Shown one piece after another: positions 44,273 to 49,554 of a DNA stretch of 64,000 nt. The DNA is taken from positions 1 to 64,000 of the forward strand of contig JABLXR010000010.1 in the NCBI GenBank assembly GCA_013178015.1, read 5' to 3'. Both the position numbers and the translations under genes were made by a program. Within the stretch, counting starts at the first letter, position 1. Every line of letters begins with the position of its first letter. The notes under the pieces were generated by a model. It did not search any database and was not told the DNA's origin. It was given only the letters and a program-made list of their open reading frames with translations. This DNA comes from Anaerolineae bacterium. Lineage in GTDB: Bacteria; Chloroflexota; Anaerolineae; DRVO01.

Positions 44273-44514
44273 CCCCCAGCACGCGGGCCGCACCCCACGC
44301 TCTCGCCGCCCGCCGCCATCCCCCCATCGCGGCCGGCTGGGCCGACAGTCCTGCCGGCACCACGGTAGCACCCCCGTGCACAGGTCCGCGTCGCATCGCG
44401 CTCGGGGGTATGCTAGAGTAGTCATACAGGCCACCCGGTATCCAGGGCCGCGCCGGTGATCGGCCCTGGAGTCCTTCCCGGGCCGTGGCTCGAGCGATTC
44501 ACAGGGGGCGATCT

Positions 44515-45303
44515 GTGAACCTCACTCTCCTGGGCACTTGCAGCGGCACCGAGCCCATGCCCGGGCGCCACCACGTCTCCTTCGCCATCGAGACCGGCGG
44601 CTGGGTCTACTGGTTCGATGCCGGCGAGGGCTGCTCCCACACCGCCCACACCAACGGCGTAGACTTGCTCCGGGTGCGGGCTATCTTCATCTCCCACCCT
44701 CACATTGACCACACCGGCGGCCTGGCGAACCTCACCTGGACCATGCACAAGCTCGATGGGCGCAACAGCGACCCGGCCCGGGCCTTGGGCGACCGGAAAG
44801 TGCCCCTCTTCCTGACCTCTGAGGCCATCTGGGAAAGCGTGCGCTACCTGCTGGGAGCATCGCTCGGCCGGCCGGAGAACCGCCTGGTAGCCGAACCACG
44901 CTACTACTCCGACGGCCTCATCTACGACGACGGCGCCCTGAGGGTCCACGCCCGGCACAACACCCACCTGGGCCACCCGGCCCCGGGCGAGCCCTGGCGT
45001 GCCTTCTCCTTCCGCATCGAGGCCGAGGGCAAGGCAGTGGTCTACTCCGGCGACGTAGGACACATCTCGGAACTAGATCCCTTGATCGAAGGGGCCGACC
45101 TCATCCTCATGGAGACTGGCCACCACCAGGTGCGCTCTGTCTGCGAGTATCTGGCCGGCTCGGATAGGCGCTGGGGGCGATTGGGGTTCATCCATCACGG
45201 CCGGGCTATCCTGAGCGACCCCGAGGGGCAGTTGGCTATCGCGCGGAAGATCCTGGGCGAGCGGGTCTTCATCGGTGACGACGGCGTGAAACTGAGGGTA
45301 TGA
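44515..45303 (+). CDS. Metallo-beta-lactamase-fold hydrolase (RNase Z-like group)
   Basis: A 262-aa MBL-fold protein. It starts at the GTG at 44515, after AGGGGG; the longer frame to 44485 has no family features. The zinc motif HxHxDH is SHPHIDH at residues 60-66, preceded by GTCSGTEPMPGRHHVSF near the start. Further ligands are supplied by GDVGHISELDPL near 180 and the C-terminal FIHHGRAIL (His). The layout is close to RNase Z/arylsulfatase-like MBL proteins, but the long tRNA-binding arm is missing, so it is better called a hydrolase of unknown substrate. It lies 242 bases after the importer operon. Confidence 0.87.
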   Translation: MNLTLLGTCSGTEPMPGRHHVSFAIETGGWVYWFDAGEGCSHTAHTNGVDLLRVRAIFISHPHIDHTGGLANLTWTMHKLDGRNSDPARALGDRKVPLFLTSEAIWESVRYLLGASLGRPENRLVAEPRYYSDGLIYDDGALRVHARHNTHLGHPAPGEPWRAFSFRIEAEGKAVVYSGDVGHISELDPLIEGADLILMETGHHQVRSVCEYLAGSDRRWGRLGFIHHGRAILSDPEGQLAIARKILGERVFIGDDGVKLRV

Positions 45304-45714: not shown

Positions 45715-46593
45715 CTACCGGCGAGGGAGGGAACGTGTCAGGTCGCCGGGGGAGGGCTCGAAGCGCCAGCGCTTTCCGTCGGGACGCAGGTATCCCACTG
45801 AGCGCGAGGTATCAGGTTCGTGCTCAAATAGAAGTAGCGTCTCTTCCTCCACCGCTCGGCCCAGAAGCTCTCGCTTGCTCTCCAGGCTCTGCATCGGGGC
45901 GATGTCCAGAGCCGAGATCCAGGCCAGTCGCTCGGCCTGGATGGGCACAATAGCCAGATCGCTCAGGTAGAGGGCAGACTTACCCTCGCTCACTATGCGG
46001 ACCAGCTGTTGGCCGGCAGTGTGACCGGGCGCCGGCACCAGCCAGACGTGCTGGTTCACCCGATATGTTCCCGCCACCACTTCCAGCGCGCCCGACTCAT
46101 CCAGGACCTGCAGTTGCCTCGGGTCGTAGTCGGCGCGAGTACGCTCGTTGGGGAAAGCGGCGGCGGCCGCCTCTTCCCGCTGCACAAAGTATCGGGCGGC
46201 GGGGAAGGCAGGGGCGAGCGCCCCGTCCGTGGAGGTTAGGCTACCTCCGGTGTGGTCGGGGTGCAGATGAGTGAGCACCACCGCCACAATCTCCTCGCCG
46301 CGCACTCCAAGCTCCCGCAGGGCGGCCTCCAGCGGTCGGTAGCCAGGCGGATCGAAGGGGAGGCCGGGATCGCCAGGCGGCAGGCCGGTATTGACCAGGA
46401 CGTAGCCCTCGCCGCTTTCGATCAGAAGCGGCCGAAGGCCGACGGGCACGAGATGATCGGCGTCGGGCGGGTAGTAGCGCTCCCAGGTGGCGCGGGGCAC
46501 AGCTCCGAAGATGAGCCCCCCGTCGTAGCGGAAGACCCCGCAGTCCAGCAGCCAGGCGCGGACGGTTCCTATCCGCAGGGCGATGTCAGGCAC
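45715..46593 (-). CDS. Metallo-beta-lactamase-fold hydrolase, last gene of the KaiC-like cassette
   Basis: A 292-aa MBL-fold protein with HLHPDH at 109-114 (the zinc motif HxHxDH), PAPGHTAGQQ near 195 and YLSDLAI near 215. It resembles lactonase-type (AttM/AiiA-like) members. The start is the GTG at 46593. It overlaps the kinase stop by eight bases (GTGCCTGA), so its translation probably depends on that of the kinase. Its presence at the end of a sensor-kinase operon is odd: it could inactivate the signal that the system senses, but no substrate can be named. Confidence 0.87.
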   Translation of the reverse strand: MPDIALRIGTVRAWLLDCGVFRYDGGLIFGAVPRATWERYYPPDADHLVPVGLRPLLIESGEGYVLVNTGLPPGDPGLPFDPPGYRPLEAALRELGVRGEEIVAVVLTHLHPDHTGGSLTSTDGALAPAFPAARYFVQREEAAAAAFPNERTRADYDPRQLQVLDESGALEVVAGTYRVNQHVWLVPAPGHTAGQQLVRIVSEGKSALYLSDLAIVPIQAERLAWISALDIAPMQSLESKRELLGRAVEEETLLLFEHEPDTSRSVGYLRPDGKRWRFEPSPGDLTRSLPRR

Positions 46594-47386
46594 CAGCTCG
46601 CCCGTTGCTCTGAGGTCCCGCCTTGGGGAGAGAGACGTGGAAGGTGCTCCCCTTGCCCGGCGTGCTTTCCACCCAGATGCGCCCTTGGTGTGCTTCCACG
46701 ATGGCTCGGGCGATGGCCAGGCCCAGGCCGCTGCCGGGAGCCTTTCCGGCGGCCTGGCTGGTCCGGTAGAACCGCTGGAAGACGCGCTCCACGTCTTCCG
46801 CGCTCATGCCTATCCCTTCGTCGGCCACGGTCAGTTCCAGCGATTCACCGCGATCGTGCAGAGAGATGAGCACTCGGTCGCCCGCCTCGCTGAACTTGAT
46901 GGCATTGCTGGTGAGGTTGTCCACCACCTGTATGAGCCGCCGTGAGTCGGCCCACTCCAGGAGGCAGGTGTCAGGCACCTGCACGCGCAACTCGACTCCG
47001 GCCTTCTTGGCGTCCACGGCTGCGCTCTGGACGCTGTGATACACCACCTCGCTCAGGTCCACATGGGAGGACAACTCCAGATGGCCGGCACGAGCCCTCT
47101 CCAGAGAGAGCATCTGGTCCAGCAAGTGGATGATGGCATCGGTCCGGCGTTCCATCACCCGCAGGGCGTGCTCCTGCCTTTCCTGCAGCGGGCCCAGGGT
47201 CCCGGCCAGGAAGAGGTCCACGTATCCCTTGACGAAGGTGAGCCCGCCCCGCAACTCGTGGGACATCTCCTCGATGAACTCGATACGCTCGTCCAGCGCC
47301 TGGCGGAGACGAGCACACGTCTCCTCAGTGGCATCTGGCTCGCGGGATATCGGTAGCCCGGAGCGGGCATGTGGGTCAGCGTTCAT
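46586..47386 (-). CDS. Soluble sensor histidine kinase
   Basis: A 266-aa kinase without any membrane helix. The phospho-His is H43 in FIEEMSHELRGGL, in a HisKA dimerisation helix. The ATPase domain shows NLTSNAIKFS (N box), VADEGIGMSAEDV (G1) and APGSGLGLAIARAIV (G2). No input domain is present; residues 1-25 are a short tail. The ATG at 47386 lies inside the end of the preceding small membrane-protein gene (overlap 11 bases), which indicates coupled translation. Together with the two three-helix proteins upstream, it could make a split membrane sensor kinase. No response regulator is in the cassette, so the output partner is unknown. Confidence 0.9.
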   Translation of the reverse strand: MNADPHARSGLPISREPDATEETCARLRQALDERIEFIEEMSHELRGGLTFVKGYVDLFLAGTLGPLQERQEHALRVMERRTDAIIHLLDQMLSLERARAGHLELSSHVDLSEVVYHSVQSAAVDAKKAGVELRVQVPDTCLLEWADSRRLIQVVDNLTSNAIKFSEAGDRVLISLHDRGESLELTVADEGIGMSAEDVERVFQRFYRTSQAAGKAPGSGLGLAIARAIVEAHQGRIWVESTPGKGSTFHVSLPKAGPQSNGRAGA

Positions 47387-47678
47387 GGATAAGCCACCCC
47401 CAATAGGTCCATGCAATCACGATCACCATCAGTGCCCCGGCCGCCAGCGGCACATCGTGCAGCGCGGTGCGCAAAGCCGCATTCGGCTGTCTGAAGTCCA
47501 GCGCCAGACGAGAGAGACCGGCCAGAGCTATCAGGGCTGCTCCGACATAGCCGAGTCGATAGGTGCGTCTCATACCGACGACGGCACCCAGCCGTGCGCT
47601 CACGCTGGCCACCATATAGGAGACATAGGCCGCCGCCAAGAGGGCGATAGCTGCCAGAGGGCTCGGGTCGGACTTCAC
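47376..47678 (-). CDS. Small three-helix membrane protein B
   Basis: A 100-aa protein starting at the GTG at 47678, which overlaps the stop of membrane protein A as GTGA. Three hydrophobic segments are visible (about 7-24, 33-50 and 74-93: LAAIALLAAAYVSYMVASV, YVGAALIALAGLSRLAL, AGALMVIVIAWTYWGWLI). It has no known family motif. The end of the gene contains the start of the histidine kinase gene. It may be the second half of a sensor unit. Confidence 0.7.
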   Translation of the reverse strand: MKSDPSPLAAIALLAAAYVSYMVASVSARLGAVVGMRRTYRLGYVGAALIALAGLSRLALDFRQPNAALRTALHDVPLAAGALMVIVIAWTYWGWLIHER

Positions 47679-47965
47679 GCAGGCCCGCTGAGCATCAGGC
47701 CAAACAGGTGGCCACCCGCGAGGGCCAGTAGCATGCCGGTGCCGGCAAGAACGAGCGCCGGAGGCCACTCGGCAGAGCTACCGCAGGTGAGAGCATCCCA
47801 CACTCCGCCCGTCAGGAAGCCAAGAGCACAGATGACGAAGGCCATGTAGAAAGTCCGATGACCTGCTCGAGACTGGTAGAAGCGGGCTATGAGGCCCACC
47901 ACCAAGCACAGAAGGCCCAGGCATATCCAGCCTAGCAGGTTCAGTGCCACGCACCACAACGGCAT
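47675..47965 (-). CDS. Small three-helix membrane protein A
   Basis: A 96-aa protein with three hydrophobic helices (about 3-27, 39-56 and 68-90, including LNLLGWICLGLLCLVVGLIA) and a Cys in DALTCGS on the loop. It begins 26 bases after the KaiC-like gene and shares four bases (GTGA) with the next gene. No family is recognised. With protein B it adds up to six helices, close to the sensor half of a 7TM-type kinase. Confidence 0.7.
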   Translation of the reverse strand: MPLWCVALNLLGWICLGLLCLVVGLIARFYQSRAGHRTFYMAFVICALGFLTGGVWDALTCGSSAEWPPALVLAGTGMLLALAGGHLFGLMLSGPA

Positions 47966-47991
47966 TCGCCCACCCGTCTTCCCGGGAACCT

Positions 47992-48810
47992 TCAGCGGCT
48001 CAGGAAGGCTCGCATGAAGGAATCGGCCATGCGGTGGGGGCTGCCGCTGAGAATCCCCTCGCGTCCCCTGAATCGGGACTGAATGCGGATGCCCTCAGAG
48101 GTGATCTCATACTGGCGGATGTCCTTGGCGTGGTCGCTCCCGCGCATCTTGACCACGGTGAGAGCACGATGGATGGCGCTGTCTATCTCCACGTAGCGCA
48201 AGAGCACGTAAGAGTCCACCACGAAGGCCAGATCGTCCACAGCTCGGTCGCCACCGCCCAGCAGGGACGGCCCCTCGCTGATCAGCACAGCGGTGATCCC
48301 CTCGCGCCTGAGGGCGTTGATGAACCCGTACTGCAGACCCCGCAGCTGGCTGCGCCCCTGAGCCAGTCCTTCCAAGCGAGAGATGCTGTCCACCATGATG
48401 CGCCGAGCATCAATCTCCCGGACGAGCCTCTCGACCCGTCCGCCGACGGTCTGCAAGTCAGCCAGGCCCACCTCGGGGCTGGTCATCAGCACCCGCAGCA
48501 TATGCCGGCGTTCCAGGTCCGCCAGGTCCCATCCCAGAGAGTGGGCGTCCCGGTAGAAGGCCTGGGGGAACTGCTCAAAGGTGAGCACGATCCCGGGCTC
48601 GTCATAGAACATGGCGCCAGCGTAGATGAACTGCAGCCCCAGAGTGCTCTTGCCCGTTCCGGGGGCTCCTTCTATCAGGTTACACGACTGCGGCAGAAAG
48701 CCACCCCCCAGCATCTCATCCAGCCCTGGAACGCCGGTCCGGACACGGCCGGCGCCATTGGGCTGGACGTCAGCCAACGGGATTCTGCTCGGGCCCCGCA
48801 GGCTGATCAT
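47992..48810 (-). CDS. KaiC/RadA-like single-domain ATPase
   Basis: A 272-aa RecA-fold ATPase of the KaiC family. Residues 25-45 read TGVPGLDEMLGGGFLPQSCN, the typical entry; Walker A GAPGTGKST is at 48-56; IVLTFEQFPQAF near 75 corresponds to the family's acidic position; and the Walker B segment is RRIMVDSISRLEGLAQG near 140. Only one KaiC domain is present, unlike the double-domain cyanobacterial clock protein. The 99-aa gene upstream overlaps its start by 41 bases. In archaea and other bacteria such single-domain relatives act as signalling hubs with winged-helix proteins and kinases, as seems to be the case here. There is no DUF835 or other fused domain. Confidence 0.9.
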   Translation of the reverse strand: MISLRGPSRIPLADVQPNGAGRVRTGVPGLDEMLGGGFLPQSCNLIEGAPGTGKSTLGLQFIYAGAMFYDEPGIVLTFEQFPQAFYRDAHSLGWDLADLERRHMLRVLMTSPEVGLADLQTVGGRVERLVREIDARRIMVDSISRLEGLAQGRSQLRGLQYGFINALRREGITAVLISEGPSLLGGGDRAVDDLAFVVDSYVLLRYVEIDSAIHRALTVVKMRGSDHAKDIRQYEITSEGIRIQSRFRGREGILSGSPHRMADSFMRAFLSR

Positions 48811-49069
48811 CCCGCTGCTCGTCCTCTGAATGGCACGCCCGGCCCCGGCTCGATGGGTCTGGTTCCTGACGGGAGAGCACCAGGTTGCGCCAGGGCTGGT
48901 GCAGACGATGGTACAACGGCGGCACGGAGACGCTCATGAGCTCCCGCTCCAGTTCGGGCAGTATCTGCTCGACCAGAGTGTGCGCGTCGGCAGAAGATAG
49001 GCGTCTGCATTCCCTAACCAGCCGTCCAAACGCGATTGATCCGGCATCCCTAGGCATAGTCTGTCGCAA
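48770..49069 (-). CDS. Small 99-aa protein between the winged-helix and KaiC-like genes
   Basis: A small protein with a TTG start at 49069 after AGAGGAGCG. Residues 1-65 look helical (FGRLVRECRRLSSADAHTLV, then PELERELMSVSVPPLYHRLH), and the tail is polar and disordered (SSRGRACHSEDEQRDDQPAG). It overlaps the KaiC-like gene by 41 bases. No family is recognised. Its place suggests an adaptor between the DNA-binding protein and the ATPase, which is a guess. Confidence 0.6.
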   Translation of the reverse strand: MRQTMPRDAGSIAFGRLVRECRRLSSADAHTLVEQILPELERELMSVSVPPLYHRLHQPWRNLVLSRQEPDPSSRGRACHSEDEQRDDQPAGPEQNPVG

Positions 49070-49126
49070 TGTCGCTCCTCTAGTGGCGGCGGGGGCCGCC
49101 CGTTCGAACCGGGCCGAAGGCGAGGC

Positions 49127-49504
49127 TCAGCGCATACACCTGGCCACGTGGTAGACGACCCGCAGCCGAAATCGGCGGTCTTCACAGCTCTCCAGGAACC
49201 GGGTGACGAGGTCCCTCGTCGCCGGGTCTTCGGTGAGCGTGTAGACCGGCATGTCTCCGACGCTGCCCACCTGCAGAAGGCCATCGTCGGCCATCTCCTG
49301 TAGCTGCGGTGCCACCACTTCGGGCCTTCGACCGACATATAGCGCCAGACCCGCCTGTGTATCGGCAGCATGGGGGTTCTGCTTTAGGAAGCGCAGGATG
49401 TCCCACTTGACGAAGGAATTGAGCTTGTCGTGCACGAACGAGAGCATCTCGGCGGGCAGCTCTTCCGAGACGGCGTCCATGAACCCTTCCTTCGCGCTCG
49501 TCAC
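49127..49504 (-). CDS. Winged-helix-type DNA-binding protein, first gene of the KaiC-like cassette
   Basis: A protein of about 125 aa. Residues 30-100 have a winged-helix pattern: SFVKWDILRFLKQNPHAADT (helix 1), GLALYVGRRPEVVAPQLQEM (recognition helix region) and DDGLLQVGSVGDMPVYTLTE (wing). The GTG at 49504 is eight bases after GGGAGG; a later ATG at 49480 is also possible. It probably controls the operon itself, since it is the first gene and follows an extended -10 promoter. Similar winged-helix partners accompany KaiC-like ATPases in other microbes. Confidence 0.75.
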   Translation of the reverse strand: MTSAKEGFMDAVSEELPAEMLSFVHDKLNSFVKWDILRFLKQNPHAADTQAGLALYVGRRPEVVAPQLQEMADDGLLQVGSVGDMPVYTLTEDPATRDLVTRFLESCEDRRFRLRVVYHVARCMR

Positions 49505-49545
49505 AGTCCACTCCCTCCCTGTCAAGTGAGCACGAAACTCCGCCT

Positions 49546-49554
49546 ATTGTAGCA
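49546..49554 (-). promoter_or_regulatory. Extended -10 promoter of the KaiC-like cassette
   Basis: The minus strand reads TGCTACAAT, about 40 bases before the first gene's start. The gap to the divergent dehydrogenase gene is only 181 bases, so the two promoters could interact. Confidence 0.5.

Follow-up and report, generated by a model that had tools for sequence, protein, structure and literature searches.

Gene content of the locus

The window analysed here, a 64,000-nucleotide stretch of a contig from an Anaerolineae bacterium, contains a compact minus-strand cluster that combines a single-domain KaiC-type ATPase with a winged-helix protein (wHTH), two small membrane proteins (TM1 and TM2), a histidine kinase (HK) and a metallo-beta-lactamase-fold (MBL) hydrolase. 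In the direction of reading, its features are:

49546..49554, minus strand: possible extended -10 element TGCTACAAT, a consensus match only, absent from a stricter scan
49511-49520, minus strand: ribosome site AGGGAGGGAG upstream of wHTH, read from the sequence
49127..49504, minus strand: wHTH, winged-helix DNA-binding protein, 125 aa from GTG
48770..49069, minus strand: 99-aa ORF, a doubtful gene, with a TTG start and a GAGGAG ribosome-site-like stretch
47992..48810, minus strand: single-domain KaiC-type ATPase, 272 aa, one PF06745 domain
47675..47965, minus strand: TM1, three-helix membrane protein, 96 aa
47376..47678, minus strand: TM2, three-helix membrane protein, 100 aa, with a C-terminal YWGWL motif
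46586..47386, minus strand: soluble HK with HisKA and HATPase_c domains, 266 aa from ATG
45715..46593, minus strand: MBL-fold hydrolase, YtnP/AHL-lactonase-like

Consecutive frames overlap by 41 bases (99-aa ORF and KaiC), 4 bases (TM1 and TM2), 11 bases (TM2 and HK) and 8 bases (HK and MBL), exactly as positioned in the initial annotation, which described seven densely packed genes; that description omitted two short gaps, of 57 bases between wHTH and the 99-aa ORF and of 26 bases between KaiC and TM1. One of the seven fared less well. No homologue of the 99-aa ORF was found elsewhere in its own genome or in the loci searched, and its codon score of -0.003 falls among those of spurious frames (-0.53 to +0.08) and below those of all real genes (0.15-0.34). 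The five other frames there score lower still, and the ORF fills a wHTH-KaiC gap which at 320 bases is the longest in 73 genomes (next longest 218 bases). With no homologue and a non-coding-like codon score, the ORF is unsupported as a partner protein, and its standing as a real gene is unproven.

Neither the seven genes nor the next gene on either side encodes a response regulator, and no Rfam match indicating an RNA element was found in the operon. Just past the operon end, on the opposite strand, positions 44485-45303 of the window encode a second MBL-fold protein with RNase Z-like matches, these being below cut-off.

Conservation across the Anaerolineae

We surveyed 396 Anaerolineae genomes for wHTH (E<=1e-12) and TM2 (E<=1e-6), and found matches in 109 and 93 genomes, respectively. 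wHTH and KaiC lie beside TM2, within 4 kb on the same strand, in 73 of the 93 genomes that have it, and the order wHTH-KaiC-TM2 is the same in all 73, across many families. Neighbour analysis of relatives likewise showed wHTH, KaiC, TM1 and TM2 recurring in unchanged order. With same-order relatives in dozens of genomes, the shared order is far beyond chance. Conservation of gene order, on which the initial annotation had staked its proposal, was found for six of its seven genes, and lends support to its idea of a KaiC-centred signalling operon uniting a single-domain KaiC with a winged-helix protein and a kinase.

Direct reading of 48 loci, one record being counted twice (as L044 and L189), revealed the usual layout secA > wHTH > KaiC > TM1 > TM2 > (GAF-kinase) > adenosine deaminase > (MBL). 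The upstream gene we take to be secA and the downstream one to be adenosine deaminase (add), both recognised from their own sequences and followed into further loci through their similarity. Of the directly read loci, 45 have enough contig to show the upstream gene; it is secA in 43, including loci that lack wHTH and KaiC. wHTH is present in 46/48 loci, TM1 in 45/48 and KaiC in 38/48; 27 loci extend 6 kb downstream, and of these 23 have add, 11 a kinase and nine an MBL gene. The TM1-TM2 pair is the most constant part of the cluster; wHTH comes next, KaiC third, and the kinase and hydrolase last. The conserved order beside secA and add could partly reflect slow genome rearrangement.

Natural variants depart from this layout in two ways. 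Ten genomes encode wHTH and TM2 with no KaiC between them and room for TM1 only (G330, counted as KaiC-less in the survey, has a KaiC on direct reading and is excluded from the ten); the eight such loci read directly (L175-L182) have the arrangement wHTH-TM1-TM2. These KaiC-less loci point to wHTH and the membrane proteins as a functional unit to which KaiC is an added layer, and suggest that wHTH and TM1-TM2 may work together directly, with KaiC adding ATP dependence. Two further loci (L183, L184) encode TM1-TM2 without wHTH and KaiC, indicating that the pair may also act independently. In distance correlations between cluster proteins the enzyme Add scores nearly as well as the supposed partners, and this mirror-tree test of partnership was discarded as not discriminating.

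The window itself has wHTH, KaiC, TM1 and TM2 in cluster order on one strand, and thereby belongs to this family of loci, but does not share their placement between secA and add. The secA of its genome is on another contig (C9), and no adenosine deaminase (PF00962) match was found in the whole assembly (G000), whereas relatives keep one at the cluster. Either this copy has moved or its surroundings have been rearranged; we interpret it as a relocated and trimmed copy in which six genes were kept together. The gene cluster is apparently undescribed: a literature search, with most subscription journals outside its scope, returned no paper describing this gene set.

The KaiC-type ATPase

The window KaiC matches PF06745 (E=1e-50) and has the Walker A (GAPGTGKS), Walker B (MVDS) and catalytic glutamate expected of KaiC-like ATPases, both Walker motifs being intact and RGSDH also being present. 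The catalytic pair reads EQ (FEQ) in the window as against EE in most relatives, the second residue being Q in five of the 29 KaiC sequences counted, window included. The conserved part of the protein starts at about residue 21. Its C-terminal tail, SGSPRRMADSFxEAF, is conserved and may serve for docking. Searching 60 relatives turned up orthologues in 17 other genomes, with identities of 57-62%, and a second search found named records of Chloroflexi/Anaerolineae; the window KaiC groups within the clade of the module.

Of the two domains of cyanobacterial KaiC, the window protein is nearer to CII than to CI. At the clock phosphosites S431/T432 its residues are A-F. Relatives have F or Y at T432, while at S431 most have A and a few S or T. 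The only KaiB match in the genome is below cut-off (24.4 bits against 27). A KaiABC clock was rejected on these grounds: the single KaiC domain, the missing phosphosites and the lack of a KaiB over cut-off.

Other KaiC-type genes were encountered apart from the module. Many of the same genomes carry another group of single-domain KaiC proteins (about 40-55% identical) beside other genes (seen at L133, L134, L135 and G004:C101:17982-19069); its neighbours include a PPIC/SurA-type prolyl isomerase (one case), a MinD/ParA-type ATPase (two) and a directly upstream wHTH (one). In a relative from the Anaerolineae (G023:C827:11962-14124), two KaiB-family genes adjoin a gene of KaiC type. In keeping with the working model below, an archaeal contig (L113:5736-7719, titled Thaumarchaeota) has in a row a wHTH-like match, a KaiC 41% identical to that of the window and a 275-aa multi-helix membrane protein weakly like MASE3.

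The winged-helix and membrane proteins

The AlphaFold model of wHTH (pLDDT 85.8) consists of helices and a two-strand wing, and its nearest solved structures by Foldseek are ArsR/SmtB-type winged helices (E about 3e-4); no Pfam family was above cut-off. The protein is 34-48% identical to the wHTHs that occupy the corresponding position in relatives, and an alternative TTG start at 49525 would extend it to 132 aa. A conserved operator upstream of wHTH was sought and not found, only the ribosome site being shared; the enriched words proved to be secA coding sequence, and no dyad was clearly prominent.

Neither TM1 nor TM2 could be placed in a Pfam or NCBIfam family, the scattered weak Pfam matches of TM1 being unconvincing. 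I26, F29 and M91 are invariant in an alignment of TM1 with 19 relatives, as are Y40, W93 and W95 in one of TM2 with 17 relatives. The predicted model of TM2 (pLDDT 85) comprises three long helices and has no significant structural relatives, solved Sec components included. Among 400 genomes drawn from the phylum TM2 had three matches, all three within this class.

The histidine kinase and hydrolase

The window kinase retains the H, N, G1 and G2 boxes of a two-component kinase. It has no sensor domain and no GAF domains, in contrast to the cluster kinases of relatives, which carry 2 to 7 GAF domains, and its H-box is SHELRGG, as against SHELRTP in most relatives. In HisKA kinases, loss of the threonine at this position may lower phosphatase activity. 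The same-cluster kinase is the best match of the window HK in 8 of 12 other genomes.

The hydrolase has a Lactamase_B domain with the MBL metal ligands (HLHPDH, PGHT, SD and FEH) and matches the YtnP-type family NF047919 at E=5e-35. Of the 14 other genomes in which it has a match, 12 have the best one at the cluster or, in G015, about 12 kb on. The initial annotation suggested that the hydrolase could act as an off switch by removing the signal. Its gene is a recurrent neighbour, but one that usually follows adenosine deaminase and is absent from most loci.

Proposed function and alternatives

The cluster probably links membrane state or cell energy to gene activity. Our working model is a KaiC ATP switch that is anchored to the membrane and controls the wHTH factor, the kinase and hydrolase being accessories; we hold it tentatively as the likeliest reading, at a little under an even chance. 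In this model TM1 and TM2 would come together as a small helical unit in the membrane and respond to some condition of the membrane or envelope, and KaiC, which like its relatives is probably hexameric, would dock on that unit. The state of KaiC would shift with ATP binding and hydrolysis and would govern DNA binding by wHTH, and through it the putative target genes. The kinase would be an accessory branch, and the MBL enzyme would supply an associated metabolic or detoxifying function. A version in which TM1-TM2 is an undescribed membrane receptor with a historical tie to secA, and the clock-related KaiC an energy-dependent gate that releases or holds the transcription factor, would amount to a bacterial membrane-to-gene switch without a phosphorelay, but strikes us as rather unlikely.

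The near-constant position of secA directly upstream, retained without wHTH and KaiC, would also be expected if TM1-TM2 were a secA-linked unit, for example an export auxiliary or a sensor of export stress, whose state is reported by wHTH and KaiC. We consider this improbable, as the window genome has secA on a different contig and the module persists without it, TM2 lacks significant likeness to solved Sec components, and the adjacency may be historical.

Equally doubtful is a split sensor, in which TM1-TM2 would signal to the soluble kinase and on to a response regulator elsewhere, with KaiC tuning the kinase as happens with SasA in cyanobacteria. Both the window and many relatives do have a kinase of the same family downstream, and that of the window has no sensor of its own. 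The initial annotation had called it a split sensor kinase, a description that is not supported in the strict sense since the relatives' kinases have their own GAF sensors and many TM1-TM2 loci lack an adjoining kinase: the KaiC-less loci and several others run from TM1-TM2 to add with no kinase between. The missing response regulator and the altered H-box of the window kinase also argue against it. That unrelated genes merely stayed together by neutral linkage is very unlikely, for although the housekeeping genes secA and add share the stretch and the distance correlations are non-discriminating, the window holds its six genes together, with 4-, 11- and 8-base overlaps, in the absence of both secA and add, and the order is kept in 73/73 genomes.

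The natural variants lacking KaiC, or both KaiC and wHTH, make the role of a lone KaiC domain directly testable.

Comparison with known systems

Single-domain KaiC proteins have mostly been discussed as archaeal hubs with guessed partners. Here a bacterial KaiC is accompanied by an unusually constant partner set in many genomes, and the module adds two conserved membrane protein families that lack a convincing Pfam match.

Cyanobacterial KaiABC with SasA resembles the cluster in having a KaiC domain of the CII type to which the window protein is closest, and in involving a histidine kinase. It differs in that the window KaiC has one domain, A at S431 and no T432 equivalent, in the lack of a KaiB over cut-off, and in that the window kinase has no KaiB-like domain, unlike SasA. 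The archaellum protein ArlH also has a single KaiC domain and works at the membrane, but no archaellum genes adjoin the window cluster and the match to ArlH is far weaker than that to KaiC CII. The hydrolase shares the MBL fold and metal ligands with YtnP-type lactonases, but at 121 of the 425 bits required is not a member of NF047919.

The archaeal KaiC hubs come closest among described systems. As later papers cite their description (Makarova, Galperin and Koonin 2017), these single-domain KaiC signalling hubs connect a KaiC-like ATPase with regulators of transcription and genes for signal transduction, as the window cluster does; the present cluster differs in being bacterial and in having a fixed TM1-TM2 pair, usually between secA and add. 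Among these hubs is CirA/CsmR of Haloferax, where CirA, a KaiC homologue, has targets in common with the transcription factor CsmR (PMC13286277), a precedent for reading KaiC and wHTH as a switch.
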